A stretch of 64,000 nucleotides of DNA from Microcyclospora pomicola (taxonomy: Eukaryota > Ascomycota > Dothideomycetes > Capnodiales). This document shows positions 3,969-64,000 of the stretch, one piece after another. The DNA lies in contig NHNY01000012.1 of NCBI GenBank assembly GCA_002786065.1, positions 466,782-530,781 on the forward strand, given 5' to 3'. Under the pieces are notes generated by a model. That model did not search any database, was not told the origin of the DNA, and was given only the letters and a program-made list of their open reading frames with translations. Made by a program: the position numbers and the translations under genes. Each line of letters opens with the position of its first letter. Within the stretch, counting starts at the first letter, position 1.

Positions 3969-4903
3969 CCTGAATGCGCTGGCACAGATGTGGCTCGTGG
4001 AGGAGGAGCTGTGTCTTTAAAGAGGAGGATGATCGAGGTAGTGTTACACCAGCGAGACCGCAAGGGTGATGTGAACTGTATATAACGTGATGATACGATG
4101 GTTGGTAATTTAGGTAGCGAGTTTGTCGAGGCAAGACAATGACGGCGATGATTTGATGTTTTTCGGATTTCTTCGAGAGTGTTTTTTAATTACATGTGTT
4201 CGATCACGGTCGAATGCTGCTGCCCCGGCCACGCTTTGTGCTTCGTCCATTTCCGAATTCTGAGAGGCGGCGGCGCCGGCGGGAGCTTCACCACATTCGG
4301 ATTGGCCCCGCCTTGACTGCATCACGATGCCGGGAGCACACGACACGCCTGGACGTGTCGAAATTCTCCGGCTTTTCTGCTGGACAGCGGGTGAACAGAC
4401 ATGCATTCTTCGTCACCCTTCTACAAGCTTTGTTCTACACGATATGACGGGTAGCAGTTCGATCAGTCCTACCGCGGCTCGGCGAGTTGAGGGTTGACAG
4501 CGACAACATGCATCGGCGAGCGTAGCTACGGAGCACGGCGTAGCTTGAGCTCTAGCTTAACGTGTCATGTTCGCGTCTAATTTGCGCAACGTACAATTGA
4601 GGCTCGCCGAGGTCGTCTTCATGTGCACTCTTCCAAGTGGTCTACTGTACAACTATCAGTACCACCGCGAGAATGTGGTGGATTCGCATCCTGGCTGAAT
4701 TTCTTGCAATTGTGTGGACTATTCGTCAGTCTTGATTGTCTCGAGGTCGGGCACTGCGGTGGTGAGCATAGGCTACATGCATGAAGTCCAAAAGTGGCAT
4801 GGTAATCTTGGAAGAAACCCCGAGTCCAACAAGCTGGCTCAGTACGCTTCAAACCACTGATGGTATTGCACCTTGCTGCGGATCTCATGTCTACTTCACC
4901 ACA
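3969..4903. other. Intergenic: upstream of GYF gene, downstream of EMW1
   Basis: This 0.9-kb gap lies between two minus-strand genes and should hold the promoter of the GYF gene and the terminator of the TTC27/EMW1 gene. Short reading frames occur on both strands, but none has a recognisable domain or convincing codon pattern. I see no RNA gene or repeat. Confidence 0.5.
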
Positions 4904-7774: not shown

Positions 7775-8179
7775 GATCGCAATCTACTACTGGCCTTCAC
7801 CGTGCAATTATTTCAGTGGGAGAGCAGTATACCGACATTCAACTCATCAACAAGAAACTTTTTGAGGCCGAGTCACCAATTTGGTGGAATCGTCGGCCTC
7901 AGCCGCGCCAAGGAACCAATCACATCACTTGCGACCTTCTCTCCATCTCTCCATGGGCTTCGGAGAATGATTACATGTACAGAGTCCGTCGACACCGACA
8001 GGCGAGCGCAAGGTAGCTGCTGCGCTCAGACAGCTGAATCGCCTCTGGCATAGAGATCTGATAAAGGTAGTACGTGGGCACGAGCACAACTCACCTTTCT
8101 TTCGCTACGTCTGCCAAGACGACGCAATCCCCGCTTTGATGATCCCTAGGTTTGTGTACATACTGTTGCCACTACCCTC
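7775..8179. other. Divergent promoter region between EMW1 and the GH92 gene
   Basis: Intergenic stretch of about 400 bp between head-to-head genes. No protein-coding or RNA feature is recognised, and no obvious TATA element was found close to either start. Confidence 0.4.
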
Positions 8180-43907: not shown

Positions 43908-46197
43908 TCAAGGAAGCAATTTCGGCGCCCAATCAGGCTCCAGGTTCCTGTAATAGTCCAATTTGACAGGAATGTCGCCAGAGTACCCGACATCGCCCTG
44001 TACGTCCTCGAGCTTCGCGGCAATCTTGCCGACCATCTTTGCGATCCATCGGTCATTGACTATGCCACCAACAAATGCCTTCTTCATGCCATCTTTGGTG
44101 GATTGATGCATTTCTTTGAAAGTCTCTTTGATCTGCTGCCCAGTGGCTGTAGTGCTCTCCTTAAGGTTCTGCCGAATGCTGCGGCTAAATTGCTTGAAGT
44201 GTTCTTTGGCACTATCGGTAGACTTGACCGACAAGGTGTCGGCATCGGCATGGGCGGCAGAGACCGGTGACATAGGTTCGTCGTCGGGAGTCTCATCTAC
44301 TTCATCGACCTCCTTCTCCAACTCGATGATCTTGGTGGCTTTCACTAACGCCGCCACGAAGTTGAGGAGAGACTGATCGAATGTGGCAGGTAAACTGGCG
44401 TGTACGCTCAATGTGATCGCACTCTCATCTTTTTCAACCTTTTCACGTTCTTTCTCCGCCTGCACAGTCTTTGGGAGGCCGTCGGCTGACTCGACAGCAT
44501 CGTCCATTTCGTCTACCATCTCATGGGTCGGCGGCTTTGGTAAAGCATGCTCGTGATGAGGCAGGAGATAGGATGGAATCGTGAAGGTGGCATCCGCTCC
44601 ACCGACACGTACGACTTGTGAGATCGTCCCCGCTGCTGCCTCTGTGCGGAAAGCCATGATGTCGGCGAACTTCAGATAGGCGGCGATGTCGAAACTCGTA
44701 CTGAGCGGTACCTGACCCAGGCCCTTTACATTCACCAGTTGAGCGCAGAAGTTGGCATTGGTCAGCCAGGCCTCCAGCCGGCGCTCCAGTCGACGAATTT
44801 CTGCATTGTCCTTCGCGTAATGCTTGAAGATCTTTGCTCGCAACAAAGACGAAACCCAACTACCTGAGCCCGCAACGTTGATGGAAGTGATCGTGATCAA
44901 ATGGAAGTAACTCAGTGCAGCCAAGAGCAAGCGCAGAAGGAATGGCAGACGGTGCAAGAAGCGCCGTGTCCTTGGAGAAGACAGTGTTTTGAGGGTTGTG
45001 ACTCTGATCGATCTTTGGGGTGGATGCGTGATGGAAGGCAGAGTGTGTAGCTGCGTACACATCGCAGCACGTAGATCCTTGTCATCGTGAACGTCAAAGC
45101 CATGTTCATCCTTGGAGCCTTTACGAACATGTGCTCTCGACTGATAGATCGCACTTGACGTACGGATGTCGTTCAGTATTGCGTGATACTGCTTTTCGGC
45201 CTGGTCGTCATCTGCCGACATCGCCGTCACTTGTTGCAGACTGTCTTGCGCCGACACATTCTTCATGTAGCTTACTCCCGTGAGTGATTCGCGCAACTTG
45301 GGTCGTGTGTTCGCAGAGAGCGAGTTTCGACGGGCTCCTAGTGATTCTCGAAGCTTGGTCTCGTTGGCGAAGCCTTCTGATCCAGCCGTAGCAGCCCGAA
45401 GTAGTGGCGTGTCGTTGAGAAAGATGGCGTCGTCCTCCTGGTCCTCGGGTTGGTCCTCTAGGTCCTTGAATGTCCCCTCCGGCCCGCCTTTGACGTTTCC
45501 GTACACATCTCCAACCTCGATGCGCCGGAATAGTGGAATCCGCACAATGTCACAATACATCGCGAGCTCGATATCGTCGGCTAGCTTGAGACCTAGGAAT
45601 GATGTCAATTCTGCACTTGCTTTACTGTGTGTTCGCTGACATACCTAGCTCAATTCCATGAGCAACAATGGTGAGGCTAGACAGAGAAATGGTGATGCCT
45701 CGAATGACCATCAGCCCAGCGACATCCACGTCAATCTCCAACGCTGGTAGATTGAACAGAGCAATCTTATCGCGCGTGAAGTGCAATTCCCTGAGCACCT
45801 TCCGAAGTCCTTTGCGAGCGAAATCGGCCACCCGGTCAAATTGAGCCAGGCATGTGAGGAGTATGACGGGATAGCAGACCATGGCGAATGCGGCGTAAAG
45901 CAGCCATGACGTCGAACACACGGCGTAAATCACGTTGATCGTAGCGAGGATGGTCCACAAAGGCACTGCACTCAGCACTCGCACTCCATAGCCATGGCCG
46001 AATAATAACAACAAGGACTCAACGGCACAGCCCGAGAGAACCCAGCGAAGAGGCCACTCTGCCGCAGCTACGAGCAGAACCAGGGCAGAAGTGGCCAACA
46101 AGGGGAGTAGCAGGCCTGGAGGTTCATGCGTCCTGTCAGCGGGATGATGTGCTCGATTGCCGTCGTCGCGCGGCAGGATGATGGGGTTCGGTGCCAT
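43908..46197 (-). CDS. Conserved-looking multi-pass membrane protein of unknown function
   Basis: Exons on the minus strand are 46197-45645 and 45592-43908, 745 residues; the 52-nt intron has a GTATGT donor. The start is put at MAPNPIILPRDD; an in-frame Met at 46320 would add 41 residues. Three or four hydrophobic helices fill the first 130 residues (LLLPLLATSALVLLVAAAEW, LWTILATINVIYAVCSTSWL, AAFAMVCYPVILLTCLAQF). Next comes a beta-like LPALEIDVDVAGLMVIRGIT/SLSSLTIVAHG segment, another hydrophobic stretch about midway, and a charged C-terminal part. The region KEHFKQFSRSIRQNLKESTT resembles an amphipathic helix. I do not recognise the family. It is the last gene before the transposon block. 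Confidence 0.75.
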
Positions 46198-46789
46198 TCT
46201 GGGAATCCGTGGATATGTGGTTCGTGGGAATAGTGTTACGGCGTTGGTCCCCTGTATGAGCTGGGGGTGATGCGCCAAGAATGCAGGTTCAGGATCGCAG
46301 CCAGAATCGGGAATGTACACAAAGCAAGCAGATCCTAGCCTGCGGTCCGACGTGAATGTTGCATGTGAGATGTGCTTGAGGACGGGACGAGATGTCTGAG
46401 GTCAGCTAGGAGAACTGCAGGAAGGATTCAAGTGTTTCCGTTGTGAAGAAGTTGTTGACGAAAGGCAAGAATTATGGAAGTACATGACGAGATACGTCAC
46501 TGGCTGCAGGGTGCGCACATGCAGACAAGCGTGACAATGTGGCGTCTTGAATCTCCAAGCGAGAACAAGGATGAGACGGACATGGAGATTCCACCTCGAT
46601 GATTGTGTGTGAGTCTCACGCAAGACCAGGCATATTGATCGTTAGATGAAACAACACTGTGTAGTGAACACTAGAGATGTGTGAGAATGATCTCTGATCA
46701 GATGGAACACGTGATGTAGAGCACACGTGACCAGTCAGTTATGTAGAAAACAATCCCTTGTGCAGGAAGATCTTCTTCCTAAGGCACGC
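46198..46789. other. Promoter of the membrane-protein gene up to the edge of the RIP block
   Basis: About 590 bp of normal-composition sequence. The change to AT-rich, CpA-poor DNA is abrupt at about 46790. No gene is recognised. Confidence 0.5.
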
Positions 46790-48121
46790 ACCCTTAGAAC
46801 ATTCTTTTATCTAGTAGCTAGGTTATTAATCTAAAGGACACTAGCTATTAACTAAGGGCCTTTAGAGGCTAGTCCCCTATAGCTAGCTAGACTAATAATT
46901 AAAATAGAGCTAATTAATAGGTAGAATTAAGAAAGATACTAGTCTAAGATAGCCTAATTAACTATTCTAAGCCTAGGATCCTATTAAGCCTACTAATTAG
47001 ACTTAAACTATTCTAAGGAACTGATTATTATCTAGTTAATAATAAGTTAAGCTACATTAGCTTAATATAGCTTAATTATAGTACTTACTACTACTTAGCT
47101 TTATATTAAGCTTAAATCCTAGTATAAGAGCTAAACTAAGCTATCTAGCATCTCTAATTATAGAGAACAATTACTTTAACTTAGACTAATCTACCTAAGG
47201 CTCTTCTAACTAGCCCTAGACCCTATTTAAGATTAAACTAGAGGTTATTATATAGCTTAGAAGAAGTATAGAGCTTCTACCTTATCTCTAAGAATCTATA
47301 GAAGGGTTAGCCTAATACCCTAGCTTTAATACCTTAATAGTAACCTTCTAAAGGCTTTAAAACTAGAATTTAGGCCCTTAACTAGTCCTAATAGAATCTT
47401 AACCTATTCTAAGAAACCCTATACCCTTAATATAACCTCTACAGACTAGCCTATTACTATTATTTATTATACTACCTTAGGACCTAACTACTATAGTTAG
47501 GCTAAAGGACCCTAAGGTACATATTAAAGGGCTAGGCAAACTTAAGACTACTACTAGAAATACAGCCTTTAAGATATAGTAGCTAGAGGTTAAGAACTAT
47601 TTAGACTAAATAGAACAGTTCTAGTTTAGGAGACTAATAACTAGTAGAGAAAAGCTTAGATTAGTGTTAATATTATTAGAGGATAATAACTTATTTATAT
47701 AGATAGATATATTAAAAGGTGTTAGGTTATTGTTATTACCTAATTAAGAGGTAAAGTAGGCTAGTTAATTAAACTTCTTAAAGTTTAAACAGACTAATCT
47801 TAATTAGGATAAGACTAAGAGAAGGAACTTTAAGAGCATAGTATAGAAGATAACTATAAAGAAGTTTGTAATTAACCTATAAGCTACCTATAATAGGCTT
47901 CCTCTACTAAAGAATATAGATATACTAGTAAGAAGGTTCTAAAGTAGTATTAAGACTTAGGTTAGGAATAAACTTAACAAACTCTAAGTCTTAGTATTAA
48001 ATACTCTATACTATAAGTACATTATAAGGGCTATAACTATTAATAAACTTAACTTTTATAATAAGAACTATAGCTATACTATATTATTAAGACAATAAGA
48101 GGAAAAACTTAATACTATAAC
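46790..48121. mobile_element. Old, heavily RIPed retroelement relic, left part
   Basis: Very AT-rich, packed with CTA/TAG and almost free of CA, TG and CG dinucleotides, as expected after intense RIP plus later loss of methylated CpG. A gag-like frame with many stops can be followed from about 47500 to the end of the segment. It appears to resume after the outer element at 60880, where a mutated zinc knuckle is visible. The exact element class cannot be assigned. Confidence 0.6.
48117..48121 (+). repeat. Target-site duplication ATAAC, left copy
   Basis: The 5 bp directly before the left LTR are ATAAC; the same 5 bp follow the right LTR at 60875-60879. Confidence 0.85.
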
Positions 48122-48337
48122 TATAAGGCCCCTTTCCTACCTAAAGTAAGGTTAAAGTTATATGTCTCTAGTCTTAGTATAAAGCGACACTTCGGTACGC
48201 GACCTACGCACCTTATACGCTTTATAGATTTTTCTTAGTAGTAACTGTATCATACTATTACTCCCTTATTTCTGTGTACTACGCTATCCTTTAGTATCTA
48301 GAAGCTACGCCCTAGTAGCCTATTACTACCCCTTATA
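48122..48337 (+). repeat. 5' LTR of outer chromovirus
   Basis: 216 bp. It begins TATAAGG and ends CCTTATA, RIPed forms of TGTAAGG...CCTTACA inverted ends. It matches the 3' LTR without gaps, with about 18 differences by eye, nearly all transitions and mostly T/A here against C/G there. Confidence 0.93.
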
Positions 48338-48399
48338 ATTATAATCTATCTTTTAAGGAACATAGCCTAGTACACAGGATAGAGGACATTTAGGAGATA

Positions 48400-49560
48400 G
48401 AAGGGTATAGCACCTATAAAAACCCTATAGAGACAACTACGAGCGACACTATACAAGACGCGAGCGCGACGCTAGAAGAGCGCTTACGTATCGCGCAGGA
48501 AAAGCGGGATCGTCTTATTATACAACGAGAGCTATAGAGGGTAGAGGAAGAAGTAGCTATACTTAAGAGAGGCAATAGCATCCCTAATAGCCTCCCTAAT
48601 TATCTCTAAACTAGCCTAGCTATTACTACACTAAGATCCTTAGAACTTACTCCGAGTTTAGTAGGAAGCGCTATATAGTCGCTATATAAGCGTACGACTA
48701 GCGACGAAGAAGATGATGCGCAACCGCGTTTTAAAAAGCAGGACACTAAGCTAAAGGACTTAGATAAATACTATAGTAAGAGCATTAAGGAATATCGTAA
48801 CTACGTGCGCGATATAGAGCTTACTGCTATAAACACTCTAGGAGCCTTCTCTATAGAAGAAAACCTTATTACTTAGGCTATGTAGTTTCTTAAGGGAGAC
48901 CTAAAAGAAACCTAGTAGTCGGAGTATAAGCGACTAAAGAGCGTAGGTGTCGCGCTTAACTAGGAATACTATAAGGCATTTCTGCTAGATATCTAGGTAG
49001 ACCTAGTTAATCGTAGTATAGAGGCAAGCTAGCAATACAAGAAAGCGGAGTAACAAGAGGGCTAATCTATAAGGGCCTTCGCTACCTTTCTTAGGACACT
49101 AGAAGCGTAGCTCCCTCTATACACTAAGGCGTAATATATGTAGCACCTATTTATAGGAATAAGGCTAGAATTAAGGGCTTCTCTCTCTAACTATATAGTA
49201 ATCCCTAATATAAGGGAGAAATTAATTACTGTCGTAACTACTATAGAGACGAACATACGCCGTACTAGAGGCGCACGATCGGGACACGGTCGCATAACTA
49301 GAGAGTTATACCGTAGTCCTCGAGTCTCCTAAAGGACTCGAGGGAGTAGTAAATCGACGTACCCGACTCGCGCGCGCGATAAGCGTCGTACGCTAGAGCC
49401 GCGTAAGTATAATAACGATATAGCTATAGCACCTAAACTAGGCACTTATTAGACCTATAGAGAATTAGGTTACATCTCCCCTAACTGTCTAAAGAAGAGG
49501 AAGGGTAGAAACCCTAACAGGACCCCTATTAACTATGTTAAGGTAGGAAAAGCCTAAGCG
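48400..49560 (+). pseudogene. gag of outer chromovirus, RIPed
   Basis: A single frame with several TAG/TAA stops includes an Arg/Glu-rich helical region near 48481. At 49447-49488 it has a zinc-knuckle-shaped Cys-x2-Cys-x4-His-x4-Cys site, in which the first two Cys and the His now read Tyr and only the last Cys remains. It lies in a different frame from pol, as is common for gypsy elements. Gag forms the particle core. Confidence 0.75.
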
Positions 49561-49883
49561 CTTTACAAAGTATAGCTAATATGTAGCGTAGGGTAATCGA
49601 AAAATTATCGGCTATAGAACGCAAGTGTAGCGCGTAACGCGCGTATAGCGGCGAGACTGCACTTATAGCTATCCTTAATCCTAGTACAGCTGTTACCCTA
49701 ATTAATTAAGGGACAGTAGTAGACCTTAGTCTTAACTTAATCTCTAGCGACCTTCCTACGCTAGAATAGATAGGCGGCGAACGTAAGCATTGTTACGCTA
49801 CGTACGAGATACGCGTACGAATAGTAGACGACTATAGTACGTAGCGCGATATAGACTTCGTAGCATATAGGGTAGACCGTAAA

Positions 49884-49888
49884 GGAAG
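49884..49888 (+). repeat. Target-site duplication GGAAG, left copy
   Basis: The 5 bp directly before the inner element; the second copy is at 55448-55452. Confidence 0.88.
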
Positions 49889-50104
49889 TGTTACGGCATT
49901 TAGCTTAGGACAATGATTAATAATAGGACAATAAGTACATAGATAGAATATAAGACATGCTATAGAGAGAGAAAGACAAGAATAGTAGTGTATAGCAGAA
50001 CTAATATTCTTAAATTCAGTACTAAGAAGGGAAGACCTGTTATGCCTAAGGTAGCTACAGCTAGCTACAAACTACTAAGTCTTACAATAGGTTATACTAT
50101 AACA
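49889..50104 (-). repeat. 3' LTR of nested chromovirus
   Basis: 216 bp, starting TGTTACGG and ending CTATAACA on the plus strand. It aligns gap-free with 55232-55447, with about a dozen differences, all transitions. This copy keeps more C and G. Confidence 0.92.
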
Positions 50105-50109
50105 CTATC

Positions 50110-53100
50110 CCCTCCTTCTAAAGGCTAAGCTCCTACGAGGCCTAAAGCAAACGAACTGTAGCGGGGCTTCTAGGGGTACTAACGGTAGAACTCGTTAAGA
50201 TGCTCTACTAGGGTGTAGATATAGTCCTAAGGTTCCTAGGTCAACTTATCATAACCCTCCTATTGCACTTTGTAGTAGACACTATTAGGGGAATCCTAAG
50301 AGTCTACAATAGCCTATACCGCGTATTCTACTATATTGTCTATATAGGTAGGCGGAGGGGTAGGGAGTTGTTGTCCTAAGTAGGGGTCGTTAGGACAGGG
50401 GTATAGGAGGTTGACATAGAAGACATTATAGATCTTTATGCTAGTATGCAGCTCTAGGCAGTAGGCTTAGGGGCTAAGCTTTATAGTAATAGTGTAGGGG
50501 CCTAGTTGCTTCTAGTCTAGCTTCTTACTTAGCCTAAGGGTCTTAAGGTTGCGGCTACTAAGGTATACCCTGTCCCCTACTTAGTAGTTAGGGGTATTCT
50601 TCTAGTGTCGATTAGCGTGCTTTTCGTAAATAGCTTAGGCAAAGCGCATCTCTTATACTAGTGTTAGTTCTACTTACTCTATCTTAGTAGCGAAGTCCTA
50701 TACAGCAATTGCTTCCTAGTTAGAGCGAGTGACAGTTAAGGTAACTATATGTTTAGGGGGCTCTATTCTAGTTCGAGGGTGTTGTCTATAGTTGGCTAGG
50801 AAAGGAGATACCTTAGTAGTGCTAGAAGTCTAGTTGTTAGCAGAGAATTCTGCTGTAGCTAACTACTAAGCCTAGTCATCTTGTAGGTAGTTACAGTAGT
50901 AGCGTAGGGTTTGTTCTATAGTAGCGTTAGCGATCTCTATTTGTCTATCTGTCTAGGGGTAGTATGTAGTTAACAAGGTAGAGTTAATTCCTAATAGTTA
51001 GTATAGTGTCTTCTAGAAGGACGAGATAAATTAGGTTCCTCTATTAGAAGTAATTGTTGTTAGTAGGCTATACAGCTTCTAGATGTAGTCGTAGAACAGG
51101 CGTACTATATAGGGTGTTTTTATGCTCTAACAAGGGATTAAGTGCCGCATTTTGGTTAGTCTATCTATAACAACTATAATGTTAGACACTATATTACTAG
51201 CGATAGTCCTACTTCGGGGTAGGTCAACAACAAAATTAATAGTAATATGCTTCTAGCGGCGATCTAGGGGATCTAAGGGCTTTAAGAGACTATAGTACTT
51301 ATCCCTAGATAGTTTAGCCCTATTGCATATCCTATAGTTGCGATTGAACTAGGTAATGTCGTCGTGTATGTTAGGCTAGTACTAGTAGCGTTAGGCTAGG
51401 TCGTAGTGTTTTGCTTTGCTAGGGTGGCCTGTAGCTAGGGGTTAGTATAAATCTATTATAACTTTGTAGCGAAGGTCTTTATATTTAGGGACAAAGGTCC
51501 TACCTCTATACTGTAGCTTACCCTATACTACAGCGTATTCTAACAGAGAGACATCTTCGTAATGTGGTTCTAGGTCCTAGACTGCCTTAACTAGGCCTTA
51601 GGTAAAGGGGTCCTACTAGTATGCTTCTTCTAGGAGCTCGTTTACAGTAGGTTCTTTAGGGTTAACTATATTGTCCTTAAGTTCGCTATCGTTATTTAGG
51701 GGTTCTAGTGTTGTTTAGAGTCTGCTAAGGCGAGATAGGGCTACTTAAATAGCCTAGAGGGTGTGTGCTTATAACACAGGGTCGAGATTGTAAGGTTTTA
51801 GTACTACCTGTGTTGCGATCTCTCTACTATCCCCTCTATCTAAAGGGAGATCTCCTAGTCTCCTAGTTAAGGCGTCTACTCGACTGTTAAGAGATCTAGG
51901 TATATAGGCAAGTACGAAGTTAAATCGGGAAAGGAACTCGCTCTAGCGGGCCTGTCGTCTGTTTAGGAGCTTAGTTTTCATAAAGTAGGTAAGGTTTTTG
52001 TAGTTAGAGTGGACCTTAACTAGTTAATCAGCTCCCTCTAGTTCTGCCCTCTATTCTTCGAATGCTTTAATAATAGCAAGCAGTTCCTTATTATAGATGT
52101 TATAGTTGTATTCCGCAGGTAACATCTTCTTAGATAGATAGGCAACTAGTTTCTATAGAGAGTTAGGGTGCTATTAGAGGAGTACTGCACTAGTTATTCT
52201 ATTAGAAGCATCCGTCTCTAGTCTAGTAGGAAGGTTAAAGTCGAAGTATTATAGGATAAGGGCAGTATAGAAACTCGTAGATAGAGATTCGAATGCTTAT
52301 TACTGTTTAGGACCCTAGGTAAAGGGTAAGCCCTTTTTAGTTAATATAGTTAAGAGGGCGACAATATGTAAGTATCTCCTAATAAATCTTCTGTAGAAGT
52401 TCGCAAAACTAAGGAATCCCTAGACCTCCTTAAGGTTAGTAGGCTTAGACTAGTCGACAATAGCGGAGATCTTCTTAGGGTCTATCTTAATACCTTCTGT
52501 GCTAATAATTAGGCCTAGGTATTTAACCTCCTGTTTATAGAACTCGTATTTATTAATGTCTACTTAGAGACCTGCCTTACGCAGTCTTTCTAGCACTAGT
52601 TTGACATGTTCCCTATACTCCTTAAGGTTGTTACTATAGATAAGGATGTCGTTAATGTACGCAGTAGCGAAGCGATCTAGGAAATTATAGAGTTTGTTAT
52701 TAATGTAGTGCTAGAAGGAACTAGGTGCGTTAGACAGTCCGAAGGGCATAACTATATACTTATATAGGCCGTAGCGGGTTCTAAAAGCAGTAAGCTATTT
52801 GTCGCCTTGCTTTATACGTAGCTTATTAAAGGCTACAATAATATCTAGCTTAGTAAAGTATTTAGCCTTGCCTAGGCGGCTAAGGGTCTCTTAGATTAGG
52901 GGCAAGGGGTACTAGTTCTTAACAGTAAGGGCATTTAGGCTACGATAGTCGACGCAGAGTCGCAGTCCTCTATTAGGCTTGCGCACAAATAACACAGGGC
53001 TAGCAGCTAAGGAGCTACTAGGGCGGATAAACCCTTTGCCTAGGTTCTTAGTAAGGTATTTTTTTAGGATAAGGAGTTTATCCCTTAATATATTATAGAG

Positions 53101-53900
53101 GGGCCTAAATAGAGGTACCGCTCCTAGTATTAGTTAAATGCTATAGTTGTATAGTCTGTAGGGTGGTAGCTCGTCTGCTAACTGTTAGGAAAAGACATCA
53201 AGGAATTCGTAGTATTCTAGAGGCAGCTTAGTAGCTAGGTCTGTAGGTGTCTTAGGCTTAAGGGCCTTCTTAATATTAGCTAAAGTAACTGCGAAGAGCG
53301 AGTGTCCTGTCTTTATAGCTAGAGATCGAAAGGGGGCAGCACTAATAGCCCTAACTTTAAGGCATAGTAGTTTAGGGGCTTAGGTTAGTAGCAAGATAGT
53401 ACTAGTTATAGATCGGACTAAGTAGTTAGCTCTGTAGAAGTTGGATTTAAAGTAGAGGGTGCTTATACCGAAGTCTACAGCTAGGTTGTGACGCTTTAGC
53501 TAACTAAGGCCTAAAACTATAGAGTAGTCTAATAGCTTAGTAACAAACAGCGATACCTTCTCCTAGTAGGCTCTATTGCTAATAGACATAGTAGTGTAAC
53601 AGACATAGGTTACCTAGCTAGAGCTAGATTCTAAGCCGTTAATAAGGTCGAGAGGGCGAGGGTTCTTTAATAGTTGTAAGGGTAGGTTCTAAGATTACGT
53701 ATGTTTAGCATTAATAAATCCTAATGTAAGAGCACTATAGTTAAGGAGTGTAGGGCAATTTAATATTAATTAAGTGCCTATTTAGATAGGAATAACTATA
53801 GGTTCATCTATAAAGGACTCCTTATTAAAACGTTTTGTAGTAGTTAGTTAGATTCTTGTAGAGGATAAAGACAGTAATATAAACTAGGGGTGTCCTTATA
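50110..53900 (-). pseudogene. pol of nested chromovirus, RIPed
   Basis: Protease, reverse transcriptase, RNase H, integrase and chromodomain are all visible in one minus-strand frame with scattered TAG/TAA stops. The RT shows a [15 protein letters not shown] block, FTKLDI, a TAFRTRYG block, VMPFGLSNAPS and ILIYSNN. The integrase core and a C-terminal chromodomain (VYYKVQ, EGYDKLT) follow. The chromodomain of such elements recognises methylated H3K9 and steers insertion into heterochromatin. Confidence 0.88.
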
Positions 53901-53949
53901 AGCGTCTTTACATAAGGACTAGGCGTTTCCCTATTTAGGGGCTAGGGCA

Positions 53950-55150
53950 GGGTTGTTATTAGTGGTGTTATTGCTAAAGGTAGCACTAGTAGCTACTAAC
54001 CTAGGTTAGGGGCGATTAGAGCAGTTACTAGCAATATGCCCTAGGTTCCTACAGTAGAGGCACAACCCCTAAGTACGGCGACGGGCCTTTTCTTCCTTAG
54101 TTAAGGGGCCCCTTAGGCGAGTGCGAGCTACAGAGAGGTCTATAGGAACTGTACTATCGCCTATAGGGATAGGGGTAATACGTATAGGGATTGTAGTAGT
54201 AGTAGTAGTTATAGCTAGGCAAGCTAGTACACTGTAGGGGGCACTAGCAGAGCGGTATTAGCCTTAGGCAGAGCGAAGAAGTGCTAAATGCTAGGTAGCA
54301 AAGGTCTGTCGACGAGTATCTAAGCGCTAGCATAGAGCTATAAAGTCTGTATAGGACAGATGCTTATAGTTATTGTTAAGGAGCAAGGCATAGAGCTTAT
54401 TGCTAAGACCTTGTAGTAGTTATGCCTTCTTAGCCTCATCATTATACCTAGTATAGACAACGTAGCGACTAAATTCAGTATAGAAGTCTATAAAAGGCTA
54501 GTTCCTTTAGCGAAGAATTCTTAGTTTGTTCTAGGCAGTCCCTTACCTGTCTAGGTCGCTAAAGGCACGATCTAAGGTAGCGAACAACTCGTTAATGTTT
54601 AGGATAGTAGTGTCTCCTCTAGGGGAGAAGTAGGGTATTATCTAGGCTATAGCATTGCCCTTAAGGAATAAGATAGTATAAGCTACTTTCTAGTCCTTAG
54701 AGTAGAAGTAGTTACTGTTAGCCCTAAACTTAAGTATAATACTAAACTTCTAAGTCTCGTATTTGTCCCTATCTCTACCGAAGGTGTCTAGGTCTATAAT
54801 CTTTTAAGACCTCTTAGTAGTAGCAGCTAGGGCCTAGTCACCTTGCTAGGTAGATAGGTGTTCGAGAACTAGTTCCTTAGCAGCTAACTACTAGCGAGCG
54901 TCGTTAATATCGACCTGTAGGGCCTCTCTATAGGCCTAACTGTCTATAAGGTTCTTTATAGCTGTATCTCTTACTCTCTAAATAGCTAAAATCTGTGTCT
55001 ATACTCTATTAGGGTTATCCTAGACCTACTAGAAGAACTCTTAGGGATTAGTTAGTTAGGGGGTAGTAGCGCTACTGTTAGGATTAGCGTTAAAGCTACC
55101 TAGTGTAGCGTGTCCTAAAGAAGGTAGAGTAGAGTTTAGGTCTATAGTTT
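53950..55150 (-). pseudogene. gag of nested chromovirus, RIPed
   Basis: The frame is broken by stops. The zinc knuckle CLYCRNLGHIASNC (54062-54021) is intact: Cys-x2-Cys-x4-His-x4-Cys. The N-terminal part is poorly conserved, as is usual for gag. Confidence 0.7.
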
Positions 55151-55231
55151 AATACAGAGTTTATAGTGCAGTAGTACTATATAGTGTTTCTATAGGTTTC
55201 TAGGTGTCTGTAGATAGGTAATAGTATATAA

Positions 55232-55447
55232 TATTATAGCATTTAGCTTAGGACAATAATTAATAATAGGACAATAAGTATATAGATAGAATATAAGACA
55301 TACTATAGAGAGAGAAAGACAAGAATAGTAGTATATAGCAGAACTAATATTCTTAAATTCAGTACTAAGAAGAGAAGACCTGTTATGCCTAAGGTAGCTA
55401 CAGCTAGCTATAAACTACTAAGTCTTATAACAGGTTATACTATAATA
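55232..55447 (-). repeat. 5' LTR of nested chromovirus
   Basis: 216 bp, the partner of 49889-50104. It is more strongly RIPed: start TATTATAG instead of TGTTACGG, end ATAATA instead of ATAACA. Confidence 0.92.
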
Positions 55448-55452
55448 GGAAG
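55448..55452 (+). repeat. Target-site duplication GGAAG, right copy
   Basis: The 5 bp directly after the nested element; identical to 49884-49888. Confidence 0.88.
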
Positions 55453-58400
55453 CGCTCTACTACTAGGTATACACACCCTCTATAAATATAGTGTTAACCT
55501 AGACTATCTAGCTTAGACCTTTAGATATAGGCTAAGTAGTAAGGAAGATATCTAATATGTAGAGGTAGAAGACTTCGATATAGACGAGGTAGTGTTCCTC
55601 GGGCTCGTCGTTACCGATACACCTACAGCGTAAGTACGCGTAACAAGCGATGTACTTCTACTAGAACTTATAGAGAATATAGAAGTGTTTAACAGCGATA
55701 AGGTATCCTTATTGCTATCGCATCGATAAATAGACTATCGAATCGATATTATAGAAGGCAAGGAACCCCTATATAGGCCGCTATATAACCTATTAGAGCG
55801 CGAACTACGCCTATTACGCGAGTATCTTAAAGAGAATCTTACGAGTAGTAGGATACGCTATAGCTATAGCCTAGTAGGGGCCCTAATCCTGTTCGTTCCT
55901 AAGAAGGATAGCACTCTTAAACTGTGTATTGATTATCGTAGTCTAAATGTAGTAACTATTAAGAATAGGTACCCGCTACTATTAATCGTAGAGACACTCG
56001 ATCGCTTGTCGGGCGTATATTACTATACGACCCTCGATCTTCGAGAGGCCTACTACAGGATTAGAATTAATCCTAGAGATAAATAGAAAACAGCCTTTCG
56101 CACCCGCTATAGGCACTTCGAATACCTAGTAATGCCCTTCGGACTTACAAACGCACCTACGACCTTCTAGTCGCACATTAATCGTACGCTAGCAGGGCTG
56201 CTAGACACTGTGTGTGTAGTCTATTTAGATAACATCTTAATCTTTATATATAGCGAGGATATCGCGACGTACTAGCGCGCGATTAACAAAGTACTTAAGA
56301 GACTTAAGCGACACGAACTGTATGTAAAATTATCGAAATACACCTTCGCTACGAAGGAAGTATCGTTCCTAGGCTTTATTATAAGCACTAAGGGAGTTAC
56401 TATAGATGCCTCTAAGGTAGAAACCATTACTACCTAGCTAGAGCCTAAAAGCGTGAAGGAACTACAGATGTTCTTAGGATTCTCGAATTTCTATTGAAGG
56501 TTCGTCGTAGGTTACGCGCGTATTATAGCGCCCCTTATAGACCTACTTAAAGGAAGCAAGGCTTTTAACTAGAGCAGCAATGCTTAAGAAGCGTTCGATA
56601 GGCTTAAGACTGCCTATTTAACTGCGCCTATTATGCGCTACTTTAACCCGGCGCGTAAGATCCGTATCGAAACAGATGTATCTAGATTTGCGATCTCTAG
56701 CATCCTCTTATAGCTGTTTAAGGATAACTAATAGCACCCTATTGCCTTTATCTTAAGGAAGCTTTAAGAAGTAGAGAGAAATTAGGAAACTTATAATTAA
56801 GAGCTGTTAGCTATTGTGTACGCTTTTAAAACATAGCGACATTATATCGAAGGAGCAAGCTCCTATATAGATATGTATACCGATTATAACAACCTACGTA
56901 GTATACGCGCTATACAGAAGCTTAACCTACGTTAAGCACGCTAGGCGGTTTACCTAGTAGCGTTCGATTTTAATATCTATTACACTACTAGAGTTAAGAA
57001 CCCTGTAGATAGCCCTTCGCGAAGGCCTAATTACTATACTAAAAACTAAGCTGTATAGAGATTGTTGCTAATATTGTAAAGAAAGCTAGTAGTAATAGCA
57101 GAAATCCGGACAGTGTCCGAGAGTAGAGTACGAGGATCTACGCCTAAGCAGAGCTCGGTTGTAGACAGTAAGACGCTAGTCGCACGCCTATGCAGCGTAT
57201 TAGCGATAAACCCGGCTACTAGCGCTACTAGTCGCGAATAGTACGTGCTACGCTATAAAGCACGAGTGCTTATAAGCGAACTTGCGAAGGATGATTCTAG
57301 TGTTAGTGTAAATAGGATCCTTACGGCTTAGTAAAGAGACGCCTTTATAATAGAGCGTAGGTCGTACGCAACGTTAGCGTAGAAGCATCGTAGCAAGGGT
57401 AACCCTATATAGAGGGTTAACTAGAATAACCTTTTAAGATTTAAGGGTAGAATCTATATGCTACTAGAATCGAGTATTTAGTAGGAGCTCTTAAAGTAGC
57501 ACTATAACTATATTATAGCTAGCTATTTCGGCGTAAGTCGTACGTACGACCTTCTCGTAAGAAGCTATTATTAGTAGAACATACGCAATAATGTAGACGA
57601 ATATATCCGTATATATACTATATGCTAACGAATGAAAGTCGAAAGGCAATTGCCTTATAAAGAGCTAAGTTCCTTGCCTATCCCTTTATAACTATTCTTA
57701 GAATTAACTATAGATTTTATTATAGGACTACCTTTAGTAAAGCGCGACAACTGCGTATATAATACGATCTTTGTAGTAGTCGACCGCTACTTAAAGATAA
57801 CTCGATATATCGCTATAAAGAAGGATTAGGATGTAAATAACCTTATAAAGCAGTTTTTTAATAAAATCTGTTATAAATAGAGAGTACCTTAAGGCATTAT
57901 AACTAATCGAGGCCTAACCTTTATATTAAGGTTCTAGAAGGAAATCTGCTTCTAATTATAGGTTAAAAGGCGTTTTAGTACTACTTTCTACCTACAGAGT
58001 AATAGATAGACTAAAAGGCAGAACTAGACGCTCGAGCACTACCTACGCTACTACTACGTAGCAGAGCAGAGCGACTAGATAGACTTAATACCCTAAGCCG
58101 AATTCTACTATAACAATTTAAAACATACAAGTACTAGACAGAGCCCTTTCTTTATTGTCTATAGCATATATATAAGTATAGGAGATGCCTCTAAGGACAG
58201 AGTTATAGAGGGGGAGGTACCCGCAGCCGCAGCGAGAATTGAACGCATGCGCAACGCACGTAAATCTCTCGAAAAACATTTGCAAGCGGCACAGGAACAT
58301 CAGCAGAAATGGTTCAATTAGAATCATAGACCTATGTCCTTTAAGTAAGGGGACTTAGTGTTACTAAGCACCAGAAACCTGAAGCTAGCATCACTAACCC

Positions 58401-58800
58401 GCAAAATGTCACCTAAATTCGTAGGACTATTCAGAGTACGCGACGCAGTTAGTGCGTAAGCCTATCGCCTGTGGCTCACACTAAAGTATCGTATTCATAA
58501 CGTGTTCTATGTAGGACTGCTTAAGCTATTCTACTAGAGACCTAGGGATCCTAAGCCAGATACAGAGGCACCTGCATTAGTAGATAACGAAGGTTAGGAG
58601 CAATAGGAGGTGGAAAAGCTCCTTAATCGGCGAATTTATAAGGGAAATAGACAGTACCTAGTACGATAGAAAGGGTACTCTGAGGTATAGGATACCTAGA
58701 TAAGTAGCGATAAACTCGATAGTGCGAGCGAGTTACGCCTCGAGTACGATGCTAGGCTAGACGACACCAGAAAGACTAGCTAAAATGACAAAGGCACACC
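55453..58800 (+). pseudogene. pol of outer chromovirus, RIPed
   Basis: Continues the frame interrupted by the nested element. The RT (55922 onward) shows LCIDYRSLN, an RYPLLLI segment, TTLDLREAYYRIRI, TAFRTRYRHFEYLVMPFGLT and VVYLDNILIF (normally YLDD). RNase H lies around 56640-57050, the H2C2-type integrase zinc region around 57400-57620, and the integrase core around 57700-58330. The chromodomain is at 58607-58719 (QYLVR, KGYSEV). Many TAG/TAA stops occur, with no frameshift across 2.7 kb. The part at 58190-58330 has kept many CA and TG dinucleotides. Confidence 0.9.
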
Positions 58801-59067
58801 TTAGAGAGGTAGACCAAGAGGAAGGCTAAGGAAGTTACTGTAGGTCGTTATTGCGAAGCTACGATACCCGAAAACGACTGTTATGCGCACGTTAGGGTAT
58901 TCACAGACACATCTAGCAGACACAAAATTGGAGAAGACAATAATCAAACAGCATAGTATTTAGCCCTAGCTAGTATAACTACTTACATAGGATATAAGCT
59001 ACCTAAACGCTAACTATTAGAGAGCTAGGCGCGGACCTAGCGTTCTATATACGCTCCTTATAGATGC

Positions 59068-59880
59068 TTAGGCATCGTTAAAACCACCAAAATCCTCACT
59101 CCTATTGTCAGTAGAGTCCTTACTAGAGTCAGTAGTGCTACCACCTTCCTCATCACTCCTAGCTGTGTTTCTAAGGGTTCTAGCACCCGGCAGACCCAAC
59201 TCTTAACGCGCACGTGCGGCGGCAATAGGGCGGGTAACGATCGGAGCCTTAGCGGCGGCGCGGCGCTCGGCCAAACGGTCTATGGTCTTAGTCATCTATT
59301 TGCAGTGTTAGCATCGTGCGAGCGACGTGCGTACATAGAGCGAACTTACGCCGAAGAGCGTAGCGTTCAAGTCGCCTAGGCTGTTGTTAATAGCGACGTT
59401 AGAGGCGATCAAGCGACGCGTGTTTGCGTTGCTAATGCGCTGCTTAGCTAGGATCAGGCGTAAGTAGTCTACACTAGTAGTAGGGTTCCTAGTAGCTGCA
59501 TTCACCTGCTAGCCCTGGCGTGCTGCGCTTAACCTAAGCGCCTAGAGCGAGATAGTAGCAGCTTTCTAGGCACGCGCAAGCTTCAAGCCTGTACACTAGA
59601 CAGCAGGGTCGTTCTTGCCTCTAGCACTATTAAGGGCAGCAACAGCTCTGTTATATCTCTTACGAAGGTAGTACAGACGCTCGTAGCGCCCGTATATCTC
59701 GGGAGGGATCTGTTCGAACGATTAGCGATGCACCTGCGCGACTCGCAAAGGAAAAACTCACCAAACTACAGCTGCGATAGCCAGACACACAGTGCTTGCA
59801 CCTAGCTTCCTTAGGCTTGTTACAGAGCTTGCTCTGCTTAGCAATGGCGGAGAAGCACCTAGTGCAGGTAGGAATTTAAG
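59068..59880 (-). pseudogene. Antisense cysteine-rich reading frame inside the outer chromovirus, RIPed
   Basis: A minus-strand frame runs from about 59880 to a stop at 59068. The 5' part (59866-59762) encodes a six-Cys cluster: Cys-x2-Cys-x10-Cys-x7-Cys-x2-Cys-x6-Cys. A likely 52-nt intron (59761-59710; GTGAGT donor, GCTAAT branch region, CAG acceptor) joins it in phase to a 214-codon second exon. That exon begins IPPEIYGRYERLYYLRKRYN and ends in an acidic Ser/Asp-rich tail. Seven in-frame TAG/TAA stops, all of RIP type, interrupt the second exon; another stop precedes the Cys cluster, and the true start is not found. It lies between pol and the 3' LTR, opposite to the element's own genes. 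Function unknown; zinc binding is plausible. Confidence 0.6.
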
Positions 59881-60658
59881 GCTTAGGTGCGTCCTTACGA
59901 AGGTCGGCATCGCGCTACACAAAAGGCTCTGCGCGATTAACCTAGCGCTTGCTGATGTACTTAGGGAGACTAAAGATTATGATAGGCAGTAAGATGCTGG
60001 TGCGCTAAACGTACGTACGATAGGTGTGATGATGGTAATGCAGGTGCGTTACGAGTAGACAGAAGAATGTGCTAAACAATTAGAAGGTGTGATGATGTTA
60101 TAGGAAGGAACTTCCTAGAAGGAAGTTTAAAGTTATAAACACAACAACAACAACATCAGCCCTACTATCAGCGCAACGCGCGTCATACCTGCGCACAACA
60201 ACAGCAACGCGTTCGACGCGGCAACGCGTATTATAGCCTCACGACGAGGTTTAGGACATGTACATACAGACTACAAGCATTGCAGACATTAAGGAGACCG
60301 TCGATACAGGGGTGTACAACAAGCGACATAGATGTAGCAGCCTGCAGGCTCGAGGAGGTCTATCCTAGCTGCAGACTCGGGCATAAGGCTTGTCGAGGAA
60401 CCGTTAGCTACACATACGTACGAGGCGCGATCGCGAAGCGCGTCGCACTCTACGCGTGTACTGCTCTCGTAGGCCCGAACTACTCCCTAGGGACTCTGAC
60501 ATAGCGAGCTCGTACTAAGCGAACGGCCGTCGCACATGCGTACGACGAGCGTTCGGGAGACGACCGACTACCGCTTCGATCTCGGCTATCGTAGCTACAG
60601 GATCACTATGTAGGAGACCTCTCTTATCCTAGGGACAGGATCTAGGGGGGAGGAGAGT

Positions 60659-60874
60659 TATAAGGCCCCTTTCCCACCTGAAGTGAGGTTGAAGTCACGT
60701 GTCTCTAGTCTTAGCATAAAGCGACACTTCAGTGCGCGACCTACGCACCTCGTACGCTTCATAGATTATTCTCGGTAGTAACTGTATTATACTATTACTC
60801 CCTTATTTCTGTGTACTACGCTATCCTTTAGCATCTAGAAGCTACGCCCTAGTAGCCTATTACTACCCCTTACA
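60659..60874 (+). repeat. 3' LTR of outer chromovirus
   Basis: 216 bp, starting TATAAGG and ending CCTTACA. It keeps CACGTG, CCACCTG and similar CA/TG-containing words that are mutated in the 5' copy. It is preceded by the purine tract at about 60644-60657. Confidence 0.93.
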
Positions 60875-60879
60875 ATAAC
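60875..60879 (+). repeat. Target-site duplication ATAAC, right copy
   Basis: Identical to 48117-48121 on the other side of the element. Confidence 0.85.
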
Positions 60880-61239
60880 TAATAAGTTTAATTAATAGGA
60901 AAAGAAGAATAAGAAGCCTAAACCTATTAATAATAGCTCTAAGGAGAGAAAGAGATAGAGAAAGCTTTATTACACCTACTAATCCCCTAACTATCTTACT
61001 AATAAGTATCTAAAAAAATAAGTAGTAGTAGCTATAGGGTATTAGCTGCTATTAGAGAAGCCTAACTTATCTAACTAGTCCCTAAGGACCTAGATAGTCT
61101 TAGTAAAGGACTAACAAAGCTAGCTAAGTAGTTAGTAGTTAAATATTGTAACTTATTAAGTACTCCTATAGACACTCTAAATCTTATTAATACTACTCTT
61201 AAATATCTTGCTGCTATTAATAATAAGTTGTTTACTGTA
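60880..61239. mobile_element. Old RIPed retroelement relic, right part
   Basis: AT-rich, like 46790-48121 and probably its continuation. At 60968-61009 a frame shows Tyr-x2-Tyr-x4-Tyr-x4-Tyr, exactly the spacing of a gag zinc knuckle with all four ligands changed by single transitions. The composition changes sharply to normal at about 61240. Confidence 0.6.
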
Positions 61240-61331
61240 GAGGCCACCATGGGGCGGGTTGGGGCGGAGGTGGAGGAAAATTTGGGGCTTACCCAATTGT
61301 TTGGGTTCTTCTATTTAACCTCTATATTGTG

Positions 61332-61358
61332 CGGGGACCCATGTTATTCGGGTCCCCG
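61332..61358. repeat. Perfect 9-bp stem-loop
   Basis: CGGGGACCC, loop ATGTTATTC, then GGGTCCCCG. A weaker hairpin, ACCCAA-TTGT-TTGGGT, lies about 35 bp to the left. Confidence 0.7.
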
Positions 61359-61508
61359 GTCCTGAATTTGGGTTTAATTGGGGAAGTTACCCTAATAGAA
61401 ATTGGGGAATGACCGTTAGAGCGTTAGAAGCTACGCTAGCTCTAAAAGGAAGGTTAGACGCTAATCTTACATACTAGTATGAAACGTTTATACTAACGCT
61501 ATTTCGAA

Positions 61509-61544
61509 TGCCAATCACAGTGCCAATCACAGTGCCAATCACAG
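61509..61544 (-). repeat. Three perfect 12-bp tandem copies containing the GTGATTGGCA word
   Basis: TGCCAATCACAG three times on the plus strand, which is CTGTGATTGGCA on the minus strand. About 170 bp beyond the stop codon of H3-like gene 1. Confidence 0.9.
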
Positions 61545-61717
61545 TGCTGCTTATATCACGTGTAGGAGATAGTTTATAAGACACAAGGCATTACGATATA
61601 GTGGGTATCATCGGTTTTTAGTAGCTATCTACGCTACTATATGGGTATCATTGTTGTTTAGTAGCCAACCTTGCTACTAGGAGCCTAACTAAGCAAACAG
61701 CCTAGCCTAGTCTAGCC

Positions 61718-62396
61718 TCAATTGCCGTCCATCCTTACAGGGCTCTCCATAAGAAGCTTAAGTAGCTGCATGTCTTTCTGCTGGATAGTGACACGCTTCG
61801 AGTGAATAGCAAGCAGGTTCGTCACTAGAAACAGGGGATTAGCTAAGTAAAAGAACTAGAAGCTAAACAGACGACTTACTCTCGAAGACTCGAACCAAGA
61901 ACGCCTCTGCAGCCTCCTGAAGACACTCAAGCGCGCTAGCCTGGAACCTGAGATCGAACTTGTAACCCAGGCCAATCTCACGGACGAGACGAGCAAAAGG
62001 CGTTCTCGGGATGAGAAGTGAGACACTCTTCTGAAAGTGGCGAATCTCTTTGATTTGAGAGACTAAACACAAGTTAGTAAGTGCCAATCACTATGCCAAT
62101 CACTATTACTCACGCTCTGGCCTGATAGCTTTCTTCTGTCCATGCTTGTTCTTCCTGTACTTTCCAGGGATCTTGTTGAAAGGCACCCAGTCACGACCTT
62201 GTGTGAGCCTCTTACGGACTGTCTTAGACTTTTTTGGAGCGAGAGTCTTTCTTGGACCCTTTCCGCCTGTAGATTTGAAGCCTGTCTGTCTCCTGACTGC
62301 AGTACGCTTGATGGGTGATGCGTCGACCCGGATGCGCGTCGAAGGGGTCTCGCCGTCTTGCTGGGTGGTCGCGGGTGGTGGATTGGCGTCGGCCAT
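61718..62396 (-). CDS. Divergent histone H3-fold protein 1, with extended H3-like tail
   Basis: Exons on the minus strand: 62396-62114, 62062-61880 and 61824-61718, 190 residues; introns are 51 and 55 nt with GTGAGT and GTAAGT donors and clear branch points. The start at 62396 (MADANPPP) gives a hydrophilic histone-like tail; the in-frame Met at 62630 would add an unlikely hydrophobic leader. Residues 41-50 read [10 protein letters not shown], the H3 K9-K18 block, but behind a 30-residue extension and followed by about 40 extra basic residues. The core follows H3: [44 protein letters not shown] and [20 protein letters not shown]. Loop 1 has canonical H3 length, but EAAEAF and the divergence recall CenH3. 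All junctions are in phase and no stop is present. Probable nucleosome component; its class is unresolved. Confidence 0.83.
62082..62105 (-). repeat. Two 12-bp copies of the repeat word inside intron 1 of H3-like gene 1
   Basis: TGCCAATCACTA twice on the plus strand. They make up about half of the 51-nt intron, between the donor and the TTACTAAC branch point. Confidence 0.88.
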
Positions 62397-63259
62397 TGTG
62401 TGGGAGTGTGAGGTACCCAGGATTGTGATTGGCAAGTGATTGGCAGGTATGTAGATGGCGGACGAGTTTTGATGGGTTTCGCAGTGTCTGGCGATGCGAG
62501 GAACGACAGCGGGGCAGCAGGTGTGATTGGCAGTGATTGGCAGCAATGTAGGGCAGCTTGTCAAAAGGATGTGCAGGGGTTTGTCAAAGTGAAGGTGATG
62601 ACTGGTGGAACGTTGAGGCGGTGACGTCATAAAAATTGGGTGGCTGGGGCGGGGTAATCACGTGGCGACCTCTGATTGGTCAGGTAAGCGAACCGTCACA
62701 TGCCTGAAGTGAAGCCTGGGATGTTTTTTCCAAAACCGCTGAGAGTGATTGGCTTTGTGATTGGCAGTGTATGACGCTGAATCCCGCGACATCTGGCAGT
62801 GTGAGCGCATAGCGCGCGAAATAAGGCTGTTGTAGACACTTGTCGCTTTTGGGTAACTTGAAAATAAACCGAAAAATCTGAAAAGCTCTAGGGAGAGGAT
62901 AGTTAGCTTAAGAGCACTATATCGACAACAAGAGCTCGAAAGGACGTACTAATAATCGTTTTACAACTTTCTAGAAGGAGAAATTTAGTTCTTTTGCTTA
63001 TAGCGGGTATAAAAATTTCGTATACATACTAGGTGTGATTGGCAGTGATTGGCAGTAAAGAGTGATTTTTAGCTCATAAGGGGCTACACAAAGTCGTTAG
63101 GTTACGCGAAAATGAATTTCTGTAGATAGCAAGGAACAGTACATGTGGAAGGTGTGATTGGCAGTGATTGGCACTAGTAATAGAGACGATCTCAAAGTAA
63201 AGCTAGAAAAGAATGTTAGCAATTAGGTAATATATACATGTGAATAAAAGGAGCTTACA
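62397..63259. promoter_or_regulatory. Promoter region of H3-like gene 1 with clustered inverted CCAAT words and a CRE
   Basis: An 863-bp gap between the two H3-like genes. It holds five clusters of GTGATTGGCA (62425-62445, 62523-62542, 62745-62766, 63035-63054, 63154-63173), read as TGCCAATCAC in the direction of gene 1 transcription. It also has a palindromic TGACGTCA at 62622-62629 and a CACGTG at 62659-62664. CCAAT words bind the HAP/CBC complex, and TGACGTCA binds ATF/CREB-type bZIP factors. Whether either is used here is inference. Confidence 0.55.
62425..63173 (+). repeat. Five paired clusters of GTGATTGGCA
   Basis: Each cluster has two copies. Three of them (62521-62542, 63033-63054, 63152-63173) share the same 22-bp sequence, GTGTGATTGGCA followed directly by GTGATTGGCA, with a 10-bp period. 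The 62425 cluster has an 11-bp period, and one copy in the 62745 cluster ends GGCT. Orientation is opposite to the copies at 61509 and 62082. Confidence 0.9.
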
Positions 63260-63788
63260 CTAGTCTAGCTCGTAGTATGGGTCGCCATTCATCCTATGTC
63301 GGAGCATCCGGATCAGGCGCATGTCCTTAACTGCCATCGTGACGCGTTTTGCGTGGAGGGTCGCGAGTAAGGACATCTCGAACTCTGTTATAAGAAATGC
63401 CTCCGCAGCTTCCTGTAAGGCTCCTAACGCAGAGCCTTGAATGCGAAGCTGACCCTCTGATGATATATCTGACATTATCTCACGTACAAGACGCGAAAAG
63501 GGAAGGCGCGGTATACATAGAACGGTCGTTTTCTGGATCTGTCGAATAGCGCGTAATGCAGCAGTGCCAGGCTTAAGTCTTCGCTTTTTTCGTGACTGAG
63601 ACTGCTGTCCCATACGAGGTCGTTTTAAAGGGAACTTGACACTGCGTTTTGCTACAAGTTTCGTGCGCCCTTTACGTATGATAGCTAATTTTTTTCGTTA
63701 GTTAGAAGATCGGTGTGTTAAAAGAAGGCATAAATTACATACCATTGCTAGAAGACAATGCAGTAGATGCAGGTGTAAGAGGCGGCAT
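63260..63788 (-). CDS. Divergent histone H3-fold protein 2, CenH3-like
   Basis: Exons on the minus strand are 63788-63743 and 63684-63260, 156 residues; the 58-nt intron has a GTATGT donor, a CTAACTAAC branch point and a TTAG acceptor. The tail starts MPPLTPASTALSSSN and becomes strongly basic (SRKKRRLKPGTAALRAIRQI). The histone fold follows: [53 protein letters not shown]. Between VREI and ALQE there are two residues more than in canonical H3, the same as human CENP-A. The tail lacks the ARTKQTARKS sequence. It shares derived residues with gene 1 (IPR.PF, FEM, KDM), so the two are probably paralogues. A CT-rich tract on the coding strand (about 63820-63875) just upstream of the start fits a fungal promoter. 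Confidence 0.83.
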
Positions 63789-64000
63789 TGTAGAGGGATT
63801 AATAGCTGATAAGGAATGGTAGAGGAGGTCAGAAATCAGAGAGAGAGGGAAGGAGAGGGAAGAGGAGAAGCAATCTAAGAATAAAAGCTTACATATGTTG
63901 AGAATCACGCTAGATCTACGCTAGTGATATCCCTATTATCACGCTTTAAAACTGGTTCTTAAATCGCTTACTTTTGATTTTGTTTATTTATTAATATTGC
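63789..64000. promoter_or_regulatory. Promoter region of H3-like gene 2
   Basis: On the minus strand, a long C/T-rich stretch (63820-63875) lies 35-90 bp upstream of the start, a usual feature of fungal promoters near the transcription start. The rest, up to the window edge, shows nothing recognisable. Confidence 0.5.

Follow-up and report, generated by a model that had tools for sequence, protein, structure and literature searches.

Two unlike histone H3-like genes as probable cargo of a hAT transposon in Microcyclospora pomicola

Two H3-like genes in an un-RIPed element within a RIPed block

The window, a stretch of 64,000 nucleotides (C4:466782-530781), stops at the end of contig C4 and carries near that end two H3-like genes, A and B, separated by 863 bp (Table 1). 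A sequence-only reading of this DNA had described two intact, divergent and spliced genes with the H3 fold on one strand, and the coordinates, the open frames and the Pfam and PDB matches all agree with that description for the minus strand. Both frames are free of internal stops. The splice forms are predictions from the sequence, with two GT-AG introns in A and one intron in B. Both proteins match Pfam PF00125 (2.2e-30 for A, 6.8e-26 for B), and histones H3 are their top PDB sequence matches (8.7e-30 and 4.9e-27, respectively). Neither has the near-invariance of canonical H3, since identity to H3 is 48% over 148 columns for A and 55% over 102 columns for B; the two proteins are 47% identical to each other over 106 residues.

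Table 1. Features of the window, with positions counted from its first nucleotide (strand "." where none applies)
Feature	Position	Strand	Remarks
AT-rich RIPed block holding the insertion	46001..61237	.	TpA/ApT about 2.0
Insertion flank, probable target-site duplication	61230..61237	.	same 8 bases at the left end on C9
Right-hand part of hAT element, 2,763 bp	61238..64000	.	same stretch on 11/11 pair-carrying contigs
Terminal inverted repeat TAGAGGCCACCA	61238..61249	+	12 of 12 bases recur at the opposite end in the C14 copy
Three GTGATTGGCA motifs, as TGCCAATCAC	61509..61547	+	~270-305 bp in from the terminus
Gene A, H3-like with H3-like tail	61718..62396	-	190 aa, 3 exons: 62396-62114, 62062-61880, 61824-61718
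GTGATTGGCA motif pair	62082..62106	+	within the first intron of A
Gene B, H3-like without H3 tail	63260..63788	-	156 aa, 2 exons: 63788-63743, 63684-63260

In A, 32 residues precede the H3-like tail and 18 extra residues come after it. Compared with H3 the tail is changed at R2 (to V), T3 (to R), K4 (to R), A7 (to G), R8 (to F) and A15 (to G), and it retains Q5, T6, K9, S10, T11, G12, G13, K14, P16, R17 and K18; the K27 context ARKS is absent. Loop 1 is two residues longer than that of H3 in B, a trait of the CenH3 type, and has the H3 length in A. The tryptophan of RWQ, present in the host CenH3, is absent from B. According to the alignment, and with residue numbers that we take to be those of H3, H113, K115, R116, T118, D123 and L126 are retained in both proteins, R129 and R131 are lost in A, and R129 is lost in B. 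The residues that A and B had been said to share are indeed common to both, and they are only in part unusual. Among 238 H3-like proteins taken from top-hit lists, and thus a biased sample, IPR-x-PF (8/238) and FEM (5/238) are uncommon, whereas KDM is not (78/238); FEM and KDM occur together in 3 of the 238 and IPR and FEM in none.

We compared A and B with 32 reference rows of H3 and CenH3 to assess conservation. B kept 33 of 37 conserved columns and matched 25 of 59 variable ones (p 4e-6), and we therefore consider B to be constrained at the protein level. The corresponding values for A were 26/37 and 30/59 (p 0.088). Simulations that let H3 drift neutrally until it reached the identity observed gave stop-free runs in 15/1000 cases for A and 58/1000 for B. 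To judge from these comparisons, protein-level constraint is evident in B and slight in A, and in both it may have arisen in a host gene that was captured later.

The sequence-only reading placed the pair beside a RIPed transposon block. The block is RIPed, with TpA/ApT about 2.0 from 46 to 61 kb vs 0.56 in positions 1-46000, but the genes lie within an un-RIPed element (1.11 in the part present) that is inserted in this block. Contig C9 begins with sequence that is 92% identical to a 5.4-kb piece of the block (55447-60877), and further pieces match C9 and C51 at 87-94%; going by these matches, the block is itself a repeat family.

The element, its insertions and its motif arrays

A histone-family search of the genome, which comprises 58 contigs and 23.37 Mb, detected B with a single score on 11 contigs, 378 bases from the contig end on ten of them, and the main exon of A on the same 11 contigs. 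The stretch that holds the pair is 99.89-100% identical among contigs, a range that partly reflects assembler consensus since the assembly breaks off at one shared base in so many contigs, and it passes sharply into unrelated flanks after TAGAGGCCACCA. At the inner edge ten contigs stop at one identical base and C14 alone continues; the rest of the insertion in the window thus lies beyond the contig end. The assembled C14 copy (C14:426729-434987) is 8,259 bp long and is bounded by short terminal inverted repeats (TIRs) as in hAT elements, with 12 identical terminal bases and 19 matches among the first 21.

Right ends were located at 11 places, with ten different flanks, and left ends at 8. Six insertions have identical 8-bp flanks and a seventh agrees in 7 of 8 bases, which is the length of target duplication typical of hAT elements, and about 0.001 exact flank pairs would be expected by chance from 88 comparisons. 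The pairing of the window flank with C9 (8/8) was made by eye, allowing one extra base at the window junction, and was negative in the strict pairing test. No partner was found among the left ends for the right flanks of C7 and C56. The left flank of C14 pairs with C2 and its right flank is common to C14 and C3. Consequently, contig C14 joins two insertions, through assembly error or recombination between copies, and the 8,259 bp assembled there do not come from a single physical copy. There are at least ten insertions in the genome, the different insertion sites of near-identical copies suggest mobility, and the element is probably autonomous. We also considered a telomere-linked origin for ten contigs that end alike, and rejected it because TTAGGG repeats are absent from the loci examined, the inner flank differs per insertion and C14 continues. 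The right end on C12 (C12:2749-2763) carries three C>T or G>A changes, all of them in the 15 bp next to the terminus, and the rest of the unit is unchanged, perhaps owing to an assembler join to consensus.

The anatomy of the element is given here in coordinates of locus L011 (C14:425045-435044), in which it spans 1685-9943. The order in this copy is TIR, transposase (leftwards), central orphan gene (leftwards), a motif-rich gap, B and A (rightwards), TIR. The transposase was modelled at 5121-2050 as a protein of ~900 aa, and the model probably retains one intron. The Pfam domains zf-BED, at 22.9 bits against a cut-off of 20.6, and Dimer_Tnp_hAT, at 45.4 bits against 21.4, identify it as a hAT transposase; DUF659 scored below its own cut-off. 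The central gene (6739-5557) encodes 359 aa; its protein matched no Pfam family above cut-off, and none of the 7,999 candidates scored against it was a homologue at E<=0.001. B (7393-7921) and A (8785-9463) both lie between the TIRs. Taking the evidence together, we hold it probable that A and B are cargo of a hAT transposon, with constraint on their proteins as part of that view.

The sequence GTGATTGGCA occurs 37 times in L011 (17 and 20 by strand), in 36 cases in pairs or triplets 10-12 bp apart. Thirty-three of these motifs lie outside modelled exons, and the other four are in a stretch of the transposase that is probably intron. In a genome scan for the pair, 100 of 100 exact matches fell by their coordinates within copies of the element, and the reversed control gave 0. 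Motifs are found about 210-305 bp from both element ends, as for subterminal binding sites. The core CCAATCA also resembles the site of the CCAAT-binding complex. The paired motifs would most likely be docking sites for the BED domain of the transposase, for the central protein or for a host CCAAT-binding factor; for the Hermes transposase, binding of the left end by its BED domains via multiple sites has been reported (PMC10368747). Downstream of gene A the element also contains two 40-bp tandem units (TATAGTGGGTATCATCGG...) at 61597-61679 of the window.

An older copy (C37:93378-106168) differs from the C14 copy at 228 of 4,739 aligned sites. C>T or G>A changes make up 213 of these differences, and 201 of the 213 stand in CpA context; many stops interrupt the transposase and central frames. 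A gap of ~7 kb separates the transposase matches, which is probably a nested insertion, and the contig ends before the histone genes would be reached. The heavy RIP in this copy identifies the element family as a RIP target. Outside C37 the assembled element sequence is nearly unmutated, and those insertions seem to be recent or to have been spared until now. Any escape is incomplete, since the family has been RIPed at least once.

Published elements and relatives of the two histones

In the literature on histones in transposons we found two reports of hAT elements carrying H3 (PMC3538342, PMC6710886). The element described here, with A and B between the TIRs of a hAT element, falls among the H3-like-carrying hAT elements of Dothideomycetes. 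Manning et al. 2013 described a hAT element of 5.6 kb and a short form of 2.3 kb in Pyrenophora tritici-repentis, with ESTs for its H3-like gene, whose product has tail insertions and matches neither H3 nor CenH3; the case was read as capture, and drift was suggested (PMC3538342). As in that element, we find a hAT transposase, a central gene of unassigned function and an H3-like gene between TIRs, as well as near-identical recent copies (PMC3538342). The two differ, as far as descriptions can be compared, in that the Pyrenophora element has one H3-like gene in 5.6 kb and ours has two in 8.26 kb (PMC3538342).

Dhillon et al. 2019 reported H3-like hAT elements in Pseudocercospora, Cercospora and Sphaerulina (PMC6710886). 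The Pseudocercospora elements are 9.5-9.9 kb long, all copies are inactivated by RIP, introns are absent, and capture of an H3 transcript is the interpretation given (PMC6710886). They resemble the present element in the hAT domain, the TIRs, the 8-bp target duplications and the number of H3-like genes, which is one or two in each of theirs and two here, and their second H3-like sequence has 16 additional residues where A has 18 relative to H3 (PMC6710886). In contrast to those RIP-dead, intronless elements, the genes here are intact and have predicted introns, two in A and one in B, so that neither is an intronless H3 copy of the Pseudocercospora type (PMC6710886). In architecture the element agrees with both the Pyrenophora and the Pseudocercospora elements, and it is likely to be homologous to them. 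This kind of element is thus already known; what is new is the intact two-histone form, the introns, the motif arrays, the constraint on B and the changed tail of A.

We placed A and B in a tree of 48 sequences, hand-picked from the 238 fetched proteins plus four. In the free tree B groups with the metagenomic sequences P0027 and P0029 (98/93) and P0030 (96/98). A falls near two H3 variants, P0201 and P0217 (88/85); its end branch measures 1.76, and for this reason its position is unsure. A and B as a single clade, which would suit the duplication of one divergent H3 suggested by the sequence-only reading, were not rejected (p-AU 0.305), and the free tree was slightly outdone by one with a clade of A, B, P0027, P0029 and P0030 (p-AU 0.611); the pair may thus have a common or a separate origin. 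The three metagenomic proteins resemble B in having EFE-(M or A)-S and KDM and differ from it in overall sequence, with 49-53% identity over the alignment; EFEM and KDM recur in P0103 of Pseudogymnoascus. Homologue searches, of which we considered the best 120 of 1155 matches for A and the best 120 of 6370 for B, returned mostly ordinary or fused H3 proteins among the matches listed. With regard to a viral source, 61 stretches in viral contigs fit the peptide pattern of the B group and none encodes a relative, and two matches in viral contigs to a terminal pattern of 16 fixed bases were judged to be chance.

Possible roles of the element-borne histones

We hypothesized that the histones serve the element, a possibility that we take seriously while leaning against it. 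A, with R8 changed to F and K9-S10-T11-G12-G13-K14 kept, and the tailless B would replace host H3 in some nucleosomes, either on the element or generally. The H3K9 methyltransferase would then act poorly on nucleosomes with A or B, and silencing by heterochromatin would be weakened. In Neurospora, R8 is required for H3K9 methylation and R8A is semi-dominant, and on this ground a multi-copy H3 gene with F at position 8 could weaken silencing. The semi-dominance is known for R8A in an otherwise normal H3, and A has R8F in a tail with 32 residues ahead of it; moreover, R129 and R131 are among the H3 residues lost in A, which counts against the proposal. Expression, entry into nucleosomes, resistance to methylation and benefit to the element are all steps that we infer. 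The link to genome defence suggested by the sequence-only reading could hold only in reverse, as an escape from defence, and the centromeric or meiotic roles that it also raised are not supported here. We are more doubtful of the complete version, in which a transposon lineage supplies nucleosome components of its own (a K9-keeping H3 with R8F and a tailless H3) and, together with arrays of element-specific sites, would use them to render chromatin unreadable for H3K9 methylation. If it were true, Dothideomycete hAT elements would carry histones as an ancient means of countering silencing, favoured by selection, and not through accidental transduplication.

The main rival is passive transduplication, in which host genes of the H3 type were taken up by accident and are copied along without serving the element, the view that Dhillon et al. 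took of the Pseudocercospora elements (PMC6710886); in our judgment it could equally well be right or wrong. Both published cases were read as capture (PMC6710886, PMC3538342), the constraint on A is weak, and the selection seen in B could predate capture. Against it, B has kept its conserved columns, the frames and all splice sites of both genes are intact, and the introns speak against capture of a spliced transcript in the present element. Pyrenophora also has, by description, the same gene set of transposase, central gene and H3-like gene (PMC3538342). Overall the two genes appear to have been kept for their proteins, B clearly and A weakly, with selection that possibly acted before capture. 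The published H3-carrying transposons are treated as accidents, one set being thought to have drifted (PMC3538342) and the other being RIP-dead (PMC6710886). With an intact element, two unlike histones, constraint on at least one of them (B) and a change in A at R8, the residue needed for H3K9 methylation, it becomes directly testable in a standard Neurospora reporter strain whether the histones that a transposon encodes help it to resist silencing.

B could alternatively derive from CenH3 and act as a centromere-type decoy that marks or disturbs centromere-like chromatin, for example by steering insertion into AT-rich blocks. Its longer loop 1, the absence of an H3 tail and the location of the window insertion and of the left flank of the C14 copy in RIPed AT-rich DNA (two sites measured) are consistent with this. 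The B group does fall on the CenH3 side of the free tree, but with weak support (43/92), and B is without the RWQ tryptophan that the host CenH3 has; we regard the decoy as quite improbable. That the pair belongs to a lineage-specific H3-variant family of the host with the transposon merely a neighbour, as the sequence-only reading proposed from two divergent, intact H3-fold genes in tandem, is largely refuted and hardly credible, because A and B sit inside an un-RIPed hAT transposon, all 11 of 11 pair loci fall within one transposon stretch with different flanks and target duplications, one copy has the pair between both TIRs, and the host has its own CenH3.

That host CenH3 lies at C34:521151-521635, separate from A and B, and so neither gene is the sole CenH3, a point on which the same reading had asked for a check. 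Among the 238 fetched proteins it is closest (69%) to the CenH3 of Elasticomyces elasticus (Dothideomycetes, Mycosphaerellales). A protein search of the assembly found no canonical H3 or H4; its H3 matches were the element copies and CenH3. H3 and H4 genes are usually linked in fungi, and an assembly gap is therefore likelier than loss. A divergent H4 is present at C55:472028-472496 (74% over 53 residues), and H2A and H2B on C13 and H2A.Z on C34 were named by reading of the frames. A weak histone-family match (29.5 bits) lies at C51:2020-2124, in an open frame of 474 aa.
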